The notes beneath the pieces were generated by a model. That model made no database searches, had not been told where the DNA came from, and saw only the letters and a list, made by a program, of their open reading frames with translations. 6,299 nt of DNA from the NCBI GenBank assembly GCA_005880175.1, contig VBJR01000229.1, positions 16,967-23,265 of the forward strand, in the 5' to 3' direction. How positions within the stretch are numbered: position 1 is the first letter of the stretch; each line of letters starts with the position of its first letter. This document shows positions 2,829 through 5,046 of this stretch, in pieces. Position numbers and translations under genes: made by a program. The stretch comes from Chloroflexota bacterium. GTDB lineage: Bacteria; Chloroflexota; Dormibacteria; Dormibacterales; Dormibacteraceae.

Positions 2829-3314
2829 ATGCTCGAAGTCGATCAGCAGGCACCCGACCTGAAGCTTCCGAGCAGCGGCGGCGAGGACGTCCGGCTGTCG
2901 GAGGCGTTCGCGCGGAACCGCGCCACGGTCCTTGCGTTCTACGTCCTCGACTTCACGCCCGGTTGAAAGACCGAGCTGACCGAGTTCCGGTCACGGATGG
3001 ATGAGCTCACCGACGCGGGCGTCGCGCTCTACGGCATCAGCGTGGACAGCGTGTTCTCGCACAGGGCGTTCGCCGAGCAGCTCGGCGGCCTGCCGTTCGA
3101 GCTGATCGCCGACTTCGAGCGGAAGATGGTCGAGGCGTACGGGGTCCGCCGCGAGGACGTGCCCGGCTACTCGGGCATGCCCCAGCGCTCGGTGTTCGTG
3201 GTCGATCCCCAGGGGGTCATCCGCTGGACGTGGCAGCGCTCGCAGGAGCAGCCGCTGCCCGACTTCGACCAGGTGATCGCCGAGGCGCGCAGGGTGGCCG
3301 CGCAGGCCGGCTGA
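2829..3314 (+). CDS. Probable selenocysteine peroxiredoxin (AhpC/TSA family), in-frame UGA at the peroxidatic position
   Basis: This is a thiol-type peroxidase reducing hydrogen or organic peroxides. The frame from ATG 2829 to TGA 3312-3314 gives 161 residues if the internal TGA at 2964-2966 (codon 46) is read. The N-terminus reads MLEVDQQAPDLKLP, then LSEAF and VLAFYVLDFTPG before the UGA. The family active site is PxxxTxxC, commonly FYPxDFTPGC; here Thr43-Pro-Gly-UGA places the stop exactly at the peroxidatic cysteine. After it the frame continues as KTELTEFRSRMDEL, LYGISVDS, HRAFAEQLGGLPFELIADFE, AYGVRRED and PQRSVFVVDPQGVIRW, with the conserved Arg of the peroxidase site. There is no cysteine anywhere, so without selenocysteine the enzyme would lack its nucleophile; if it is Sec, this is a one-Sec peroxiredoxin with no resolving thiol. 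Val39 replaces the usual active-site Pro. The alternative is a Cys-to-stop point mutation or sequencing error. Confidence 0.85.
2964..2966 (+). other. In-frame UGA, predicted selenocysteine codon
   Basis: The TGA is codon 46 of the peroxiredoxin frame. It replaces the catalytic Cys codon between FTPG and KTELTEF. A hairpin begins four bases downstream. Decoding would need SelB, SelC tRNA and SelA/SelD elsewhere in the genome. Confidence 0.78.
2971..2996 (+). promoter_or_regulatory. Candidate bacterial SECIS hairpin
   Basis: Directly after UGA-AAGA the RNA can fold with an upper stem UGACCG (2977-2982) pairing with CGGUCA (2988-2993) around the five-base loop AGUUC (2983-2987). A lower stem CCG (2971-2973) pairs with CGG (2994-2996), leaving an AGC bulge on the 5' side. 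Sixteen bases separate the UGA from the loop, and the second loop base is G followed by U. Both fit my recollection of bacterial SECIS rules (G in the first two loop positions, 16-37 nt spacing). In such a GC-rich gene a hairpin could arise by chance, so this is supporting evidence rather than proof. Confidence 0.55.
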
Positions 3315-3743: not shown

Positions 3744-3749
3744 ATGCTA
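3744..3749 (-). promoter_or_regulatory. -10 element of the WGR gene
   Basis: On the minus strand the bases read TAGCAT, 14 bp before the WGR ATG and just upstream of its GAGGG ribosome site. It overlaps the kinase -10 element on the other strand, so the two promoters would compete for polymerase. Confidence 0.4.
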
Positions 3750-3753
3750 AGGT
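3745..3753 (+). promoter_or_regulatory. Extended -10 promoter of the kinase gene
   Basis: TGC followed by TAAGGT is an extended -10 arrangement, ending 11 bases before the ATG at 3765. It argues for 3765 rather than the in-frame ATG at 3744, which lies within the promoter. No recognisable -35 is present. Confidence 0.45.
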
Positions 3754-3764
3754 CGCGAGCGGGG

Positions 3765-5046
3765 ATGAGGGCAGCACCTCCGGGGTACGAACTCGTGCAC
3801 GAGCTCGGTCAAGGGGCCGCGGGCACCGTGCACCTGGCGCGGCAGGTGGCGCTGGACCGCGAGGTGGTCATCAAGCGCATCGTGGGCGGCGCCTCGTCGC
3901 AGGACCCCGAGACGGTCCTCCGCTTCGAGCGCCAGGCGCGCCTGCTGGCCCGCCTCGACCACCCCGGCATCGTTCGGGTGCACGAGGTGGTCCGCGTCGG
4001 CTCGGACCTGTGCGTGGTGATGGAGCACGTCTCTGATGGCGACCTCCGCGACCTGCTCGCCGCCGGCCCGCCGCCGCCTGACGTGGCGGCCCGCGTCCTG
4101 GGCGAGATCGCGGCGGCCCTGGACCTCGCCCACGAGCGGGGGCTGGTCCACCTGGACCTGCGGCCGGCCAACGTGCTTCTGGACTCGAGCGGCGCCATCC
4201 GGGTGAGCGACTTCGGCCTCGCGTCGCTGCTGGAGCGCCAGGCCGGCTCGCGCGCCGGCCGGCCCGGAGCCGTCGAGGGCCTCGCGTACATGGCGCCGGA
4301 GCTGGCGCGCGGCGACGTCGCCGTCGACCGCCGCGCCGATGTCTACAGCCTGGGCGCGATCGCGTACGAGATGCTGGTCGGCCGGGCGCCCTTCCCGGTG
4401 GACCCGGCCGACCCGTACGCGACGGTGCGCGCCCAGATGGACGCTGGAGAAGCCGCCCGAGCGCCGTCCCGCCACCGCCGGCGAGCTGGCCGCCTCCCTG
4501 CGCGACGGCCTGACGCTGTCGCCCACGATCGGGGCGTACGGCCGTCCCGGGCCGGTGCTGGCCCGGGCGGCGGGCGCGGCCGACGCGGGCGGGGGCCAGG
4601 AACGGACGCGGTCGCGCGGCCGCCGGCGCCTCACGATCGGGGCCGCCGGGGCCGCAGTGCTCGCCGTCGCGATCGCCGCCGTCGCCGGCGTCCGGCTCCT
4701 CCAGCCGTCTCCGGCCCCGGCGCCGCCGCTCGCCGTCACCGCGGTCGCCGCCGCCGCCGACCCCGCGGACGGCGCCGGCCACTGCCCGGCCGCCACGATC
4801 ACCCTGCGCGCCACCGTGACCACGAACGGGGCGCCGGGGACGCTCACGTACGAGTGGCTCCGGCCCGACGGCGGCGCCGCGTCCACCGGCCGCGTGGCCC
4901 TGCGCCGCGGCGACCGCACCGCCACCGTCCAGCTCCCCCTGGCCTATTCCGGCGCCGCCGCCGTCCAGGGCGTGGCGGCGCTCCACGTGCTCAGCCCGGC
5001 CGGCGTGTACTCCCGGCCACTCCGGGTCACCTACGCCTGCCCCTGA
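3765..5046 (+). pseudogene. Membrane Ser/Thr protein kinase (PknB-like), frame broken near 4440
   Basis: The first part (residues 1-225 from ATG 3765) is a Hanks-type kinase domain: glycine loop G15-Q-G-A-A-G20, Lys37 in VVIK, Glu55, catalytic loop H129-L-D131-L-R-P-A-N136, D149-F-G151, and A177-P-E179, then DVYSLGAIAYEMLVGRAPFP. The HRD Arg is Leu and the DLKP Lys is Arg, so this is a non-RD kinase with an altered loop. After VRAQM (ending 4439) the protein sense moves to the next frame, resuming at 4441 as TLEKPPERRPATAGELAASL, the usual end of the domain. About 30-40 residues expected between these points are absent, so a deletion of a length 2 mod 3 is likely. The second frame continues with a basic stretch, a membrane helix (about 4630-4695) and an extracytoplasmic Ig-like domain with cysteines in GHCP and YACP, ending at TGA 5044-5046. 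It may be a pseudogene or an assembly error. Confidence 0.8.

Follow-up and report, generated by a model that had tools for sequence, protein, structure and literature searches.

Gene organization of the locus and the in-frame UGA codon

The stretch of Chloroflexota DNA analyzed here (6,299 nucleotides, hereafter the window) carries a gene encoding a member of the peroxiredoxin superfamily, prx, whose reading frame contains a TGA codon. With this UGA read as selenocysteine (Sec), the coding sequence extends from position 2829 to 3314 of the forward strand, encodes 161 residues and terminates at a second TGA (3312-3314), an assignment based on the frame, the Pfam match and full-length relatives. 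The internal codon (2964-2966, forward strand) corresponds to residue 46, the peroxidatic position, where it aligns with UGA in the relatives and is preceded by a TxxU motif within the sequence FTPGU. Translation and alignment further place the Thr of this motif, Thr43, at 2955-2957, and Val39, which precedes Thr43 by four residues and residue 46 by seven and stands where the active-site Pro is expected, at 2943-2945; Arg120 is encoded at 3186-3188, all on the forward strand. The read-through protein matched the AhpC-TSA family (PF00578) with 124.6 bits over residues 4-133 (cut-off 26), and the parts on either side of the UGA each matched the same family alone, with 29.1 and 66.6 bits. A preliminary description of this DNA had placed the TGA in frame at the peroxidatic position, with 45 codons before it and 115 after it in a single frame, in a protein devoid of Cys; the read-through translation bore out each of these points. 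It had also anticipated that an automatic gene caller would start at 2997, and the open reading frame (ORF) list indeed contains a truncated ORF of 105 amino acids at 2997-3314 (forward strand), which equals the database entry P0004.

Two genes of molybdenum cofactor synthesis precede prx on the same strand, moaC (1852-2328, PF01967) and mogA (2325-2801, PF00994). The latter shares the frame of prx and ends with a TAG codon, with 27 nt between this TAG and the prx ATG (TAG and gap together 2799-2828). The gene order larB-HAD-moaC-prx, in which the HAD hydrolase gene has the opposite orientation, was kept in all ten loci with enough flanking sequence (L002 and L137-L145). A mogA-like ORF is found at the start of the relative's locus L001 and in genome G373, where a gene with the start MNLNSDLGEG lies between mogA and prx; we take this gene to belong to the LamB/PxpA family. 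In the database proteins P0124-P0127, mogA runs stop-free into the N-terminal half of prx and ends right before residue 46, and the two seem to form one ORF there. Taken together, the predicted neighbors of prx point to molybdenum cofactor synthesis and name no reductant for the peroxiredoxin. Further downstream in the window, a serine/threonine kinase gene (3744-5046) has its PF00069 part and its likely C-terminal part in different frames, with the change near 4440, and appears to be either frame-shifted or affected by an assembly error.

Conservation of the UGA codon in relatives

A search of a protein database with the window protein returned 640 relatives, of which the best 120 were compared by BLASTP. 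In this set, 117 proteins, the window's own entry P0004 among them, begin at query positions 47-72, with the starts clustered at positions 72 (28 proteins), 50 (24), 65 (19) and 48 (15). Starting past the place of the UGA, these entries lose the active site, as expected if each gene has a stop there, a point known here from the proteins. The other three are full-length and have Trp at residue 46; they are probably gene calls made with genetic code 4. Cys at residue 46 was found in none of the best 120 of the 640 proteins. An additional search with residues 8-60, aimed at full-length Cys relatives, gave four candidates, all of them mogA-prx ORFs, and is uninformative on Cys forms because it also missed the entry P0002.

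At the DNA level, two 'Chloroflexi bacterium' genomes (loci L001 and L002) have TGA at the codon equivalent to residue 46. A six-row alignment of the window protein, the proteins of L001 and L002 and the three with Trp then served as query against 400 genomes from a single phylum, 282 of which gave a match at 1e-15 or better. The top 23 genome matches (229-314 bits, all above 200) cover the query from residue 1 or 2 to residue 157-159, and each contains exactly one TGA, at the aligned codon, so its placement is not due to chance; one of these genomes, G001, is that of L001, itself a row of the query alignment. A gap in score separates the 23rd match (229 bits) from the next (122 bits); the matches from there downward are a broad range of more remote peroxiredoxins, some with Sec and some with Cys. 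No Cys version of the window's clade was seen in the 400-genome draw.

For the comparison of individual residues we aligned 111 rows, comprising the window, L001, L002 and 108 further loci; the set includes all 66 TGA-bearing rows and 43 of the 84 TGA-less rows among the matches listed. The TGA aligned with residue 46 in 66 of the 66 TGA-bearing rows among these matches, and every aligned relative has either UGA (68 rows, the window included) or Cys (43 rows) at this position. The preliminary description had considered that close relatives might carry other disruptions in the gene; the 23 closest genes have no further stop. Pairwise omega values by the NG86 method, which are rough since dS was often near 1, were 0.11-0.37 between the window and its relatives for the N-terminal half (six pairs, a seventh being saturated) and 0.23-0.59 for the C-terminal half (seven pairs).

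A predicted SECIS hairpin downstream of the UGA codon

A bacterial SECIS (bSECIS) hairpin was predicted at 2977-2993 of the forward strand, corresponding to nt 14-30 when the U of the UGA is taken as nt 1. It consists of a 6-bp stem (2977-2982 paired with 2988-2993) and a 5-nt loop (2983-2987) with G in second place followed by U, has 16 nt between the UGA and the loop, and has a folding energy of -7.7 kcal/mol. These values lie within the bSECIS limits given in the available text of a 2026 review, namely a loop of 3-9 nt, a stem of 4-16 bp, a G at loop position 1 or 2, a spacing of 16-37 nt and an energy of -7.5 kcal/mol or less (PMC13188914). An Rfam scan of the window gave two matches, both chance-like and below the gathering score. 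Among distant genes, the stems following the UGA differ in sequence (GACCG/CGGUC, UUCCG/CGGAA, CACCUC/GAGGUG, GUCCC/GGGAC, ACCUCC/GGAGGU and GCCUUC/GAAGGC) and occupy about the same place. Since the stems shift by one base between subfamilies, a count of base pairs in a fixed register was uninformative and was replaced by a codon test, in which the folding energy of nt 10-36 was compared with that of random synonymous codons encoding the same protein.

In a first run with 57 Sec loci, the mean energy was -8.80, compared with -5.52 ± 0.27 for the shuffles. Individually, 24 of these loci reached p < 0.05 and 33 had p of 0.05 or above, and eight showed no excess (z above 0; seven above 0.1 and the eighth at 0.04). 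The window hairpin alone was not significant against its synonymous shuffles (p 0.13). The excess was present both in the window's clade (n = 25; -9.01 vs -5.66 ± 0.38 for the shuffles; 11 rows with p < 0.05) and in the other Sec rows (n = 43; -8.45 vs -5.06 ± 0.31; 18 rows with p < 0.05). In contrast, the same region of the Cys paralogues (n = 43) folded no more stably than its shuffles (-4.73 vs -4.85 ± 0.27; four rows with p < 0.05), and control places at nt 64-90 and 124-150 of the same genes gave family z values of only -2.1 to 0.6. Relatedness among the genes inflates such z values; the Cys rows and the control places are also related, yet they show little or no excess. When the strict bSECIS limits were applied with an unbroken stem, hairpins were found in 28 of 68 Sec rows (shuffles 4.0 ± 1.7, maximum 8), of which 15 belong to the window's 25-row clade, and in 2 of 43 Cys rows (shuffles 1.5 ± 1.2). 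The synonymous-codon comparison thus indicates that the hairpin is under selection in the Sec genes as a group.

Selenocysteine machinery in the genomes of relatives

The genes for Sec synthesis and insertion were assessed in genomes of prx-bearing relatives. Both the L001 and the L002 genome contain tRNA-Sec (69.3 and 72.5 bits, anticodon tca in both), selB (341 and 350 bits) and, adjoining selB, selA (about 505 bits); selD was found with 288 bits and an in-frame TGA in one of them and as a weak match in the other. We examined 12 further prx-bearing genomes, representing 12 of the 22 other top-match genomes. Eleven of the 12 have tRNA-Sec over the cut-off, 11 have selB, and all 12 have selD over the cut-off, with one in-frame TGA in 11, which suggests that selenophosphate synthetase is probably also a selenoprotein in these organisms; the selD of G249 has no TGA. 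G373, the nearest sampled genome, contains tRNA-Sec, selA, selB and selD, and its products share with those of the window 74% identity in the peroxiredoxin and, over the aligned parts, 82% of the residues in MoaC and 79% in LarB.

The selA gene was present in 22 of the 23 top-match genomes (G001 being also within the L001/L002 count) and in 321 of the 400 genomes of the phylum, so that its co-occurrence with prx is a consistency check and a weak test. Individual components were missing from three genomes (selA and selB from G097, tRNA-Sec over the cut-off from G326, and a good selD from G002), and these absences may be gaps, as the genomes are in many contigs. Relatives bearing prx mostly contain the Sec machinery. 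With the conservation of the codon and the hairpin taken into account as well, selenocysteine is very likely the residue encoded by the UGA of prx.

Active-site residues of the Sec and Cys forms

The Pro-Thr-Cys-Arg active site of peroxiredoxins is among the best-studied in redox biology. The earlier claim that Val replaces the active-site Pro in the window protein held on alignment, with Val39 standing where 42 of 43 Cys rows have Pro and the remaining one has Val. The 68 Sec rows have at this position V (45 rows), P (9), H (7), L (3), A (2), Y (1) or E (1). Thus, the Pro of the PxxxT/SxxC motif is replaced in 59 of the 68 sampled Sec genes and kept in 42 of the 43 Cys paralogues, in a sample whose ranking by similarity to queries lacking the Pro favors Pro-less Sec rows. 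Residue 43 is T or S except in four Sec rows, which have G (e.g., YLFDFGRIU), and Arg occupies position 120 in all 111 rows.

We built a quick tree without columns 39 and 46, in which 36 of 108 inner branches were well supported. The window falls within a clade of 25 rows (SH-aLRT 99), all of which have Sec, Val39 and Thr43. No Cys at all is present in 21 of these 25 proteins; in one of the four that contain Cys, L027, the reading was extended to 248 residues. The tree requires at least 8 changes between Sec and Cys and at least 10 between Pro and other residues. An independent-pairs test of Sec against Pro loss gave 2 and 5 pairs with the supported branches and 8 and 10 pairs with all branches (median p 1), so the link between the two characters is not proven, the independent pairs being too few. 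Pro loss accompanies Sec in the sampled rows, an association that is suggestive only and may not be causal, given that the sample was ranked toward Pro-less queries and that nine Sec rows keep the Pro.

The active site described here, with Val in place of the Pro of PxxxT/SxxC throughout a clade, appears to be new. As a tentative reading, to which we assign somewhat less than an even chance, the Sec peroxiredoxins of this phylum may repeatedly have given up the Pro of PxxxTxxC, selenium making this residue dispensable, and the clade may represent an ancient peroxidase lineage with Sec forms only, devoid of the Pro and largely of Cys, for which a return to Cys would be difficult. If this is true, the lineage would offer an experiment of nature on the contributions that sulfur, but not selenium, requires from the protein. 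Two further observations concern the Pro place: the same phylum contains many additional Sec subfamilies, some with His, Leu, Tyr, Ala or Glu there, and the sole Cys row without Pro, L134 (FYVEDGTPSC), is on a long branch.

Proposed mechanism and alternative readings

Insertion of Sec at the UGA codon 2964-2966, taken by itself, appears to us very likely from the conservation of the codon, the hairpin and the machinery present in relatives. This reading was put forward in the preliminary description and is supported by the checks proposed there on aligned relatives, on the hairpin and on the sel genes of related genomes. SelB bound to the hairpin just downstream would help the ribosome to insert Sec. 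Sec46, held by Thr43 and Arg120, would attack a hydroperoxide and be converted to selenenic acid. An external thiol or redox protein would then have to reduce the oxidized residue, because the peroxiredoxin has no resolving Cys. The selenenic-acid cycle and external reduction are family chemistry. As to the loss of the PxxxTxxC Pro in the clade, we speculate that a selenolate perhaps needs less help from the protein for its reactivity. The combined reading, in which Sec is inserted and the product functions as a one-Sec peroxiredoxin, is probable, with a confidence clearly below that for insertion.

The most serious alternative is that Sec is inserted into a protein that is not mainly a peroxidase and acts as a peroxide sensor or on another substrate, the Pro and the resolving Cys both being absent. 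The uniform Val39 and the rarity of Cys in the clade speak for this possibility. However, Thr43 is retained throughout the clade and Arg120 in all rows, and one-Cys peroxiredoxins function without a resolving Cys. We therefore consider a non-peroxidase function unlikely and retain the assignment as a one-Sec peroxiredoxin.

It is far less probable that the UGA is a true stop that splits the gene into a 45-residue N-terminal piece and a restarted C-terminal piece. The clustering of the database starts among the best 120 of the 640 proteins would agree with a restart, but no single start is common to all of them; moreover, conservation extends over both halves in a single frame, Thr43 and Arg120 belong to one active site, and the hairpin excess is found in the UGA genes and not in the Cys genes. 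An organism-wide reading of UGA as another amino acid, either Trp (code 4) or other, is equally remote: the three entries with Trp at residue 46 would fit it, whereas TGA is the stop codon of prx in the window, in L001 and in L002 and of moaC in the window, relatives possess tRNA-Sec and the rest of the Sec machinery, and the codon is at a redox-active place. Finally, a sequencing error (TGA for TGC or TGT) or a pseudogene formed by a recent nonsense mutation can practically be dismissed, for although TGA is one base from a Cys codon and the kinase gene in the window seems frame-shifted, independent genomes share the TGA at this codon (all 23 close genomes and every TGA-bearing row among the matches listed) and Cys is absent from residue 46 in the best 120 of the 640 proteins. 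The conserved UGA, the TGA stops, the hairpin and the single frame led us to reject all of these readings of the codon in favor of Sec.

Relation to known peroxiredoxin families and structures

Sec peroxiredoxins are already known as a kind. As described in the available text of the respective reports, a Sargasso Sea survey found 43 Sec peroxiredoxin genes with TxxU (PMC1088965), a 2006 survey listed 12 Sec peroxiredoxins and, for Chloroflexi, three selenoproteins in all (PMC1794560), and a 2016 survey counted 91 Sec peroxiredoxins in 78 organisms (PMC5029168). The available text of the 2026 review describes PxxxTxxU as highly conserved in the Sec forms (PMC13188914); in contrast, the window protein has Val39 and no Pro before its TxxU. 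The main text of this review contains no match to 'chloroflex', and that of the deep-Sep paper (PMC12013277) none to 'peroxiredoxin'. Among the titles and abstract openings covered by our literature search, which took in few subscription papers, none named the window's clade. The window protein reaches no NCBIfam cut-off, remaining below those of all 12 families matched, and we therefore regard it as a variant of the known Sec peroxiredoxins, with a Pro-less active site.

The preliminary description had drawn a parallel with PrxU of Eubacterium acidaminophilum (NF040737). This parallel stands for the Sec at the peroxidatic place, the TxxU motif and the PF00578 domain; by the NCBI model, however, the window protein is of a different subfamily, scoring 64.4 bits against a cut-off of 270. 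The curated PrxQ/BCP models likewise gave scores below their cut-offs (59.1 vs 140 for the thiol peroxidase NF006960 and 61.5 vs 260 for PrxQ, NF053650), and the Prx-SUH thiol peroxidase (NF045827) was a weak peroxiredoxin-type match (38 bits vs a cut-off of 298).

AhpE of Mycobacterium tuberculosis (Rv2238c) resembles the window protein in its single peroxidatic residue, similar length and lack of a resolving Cys, but it is a Cys form and only weakly similar, its match of about 58 bits being below those of the PrxQ/BCP and several 2-Cys chains; we take Rv2238c to be AhpE and of the one-Cys type. The nearest solved relatives are archaeal PrxQ/BCP-type chains with 28-32% identity to the window protein, namely 2cx3 and 4gqc from Aeropyrum pernix and 3hjp (Bcp4) and 3drn (Bcp1) from Sulfolobus solfataricus. 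By sequence the nearest structure was 2cx3 (122 bits), which differs in being a Cys form with the Pro in place and with further Cys in the matched stretch. An AlphaFold2 model of the window protein was of middling quality (mean pLDDT 72.9, with about 54 for residues 41-50; pTM 0.74) and was used for its overall fold alone, and by this fold the nearest structure was 3hjp (E 2.2e-11).
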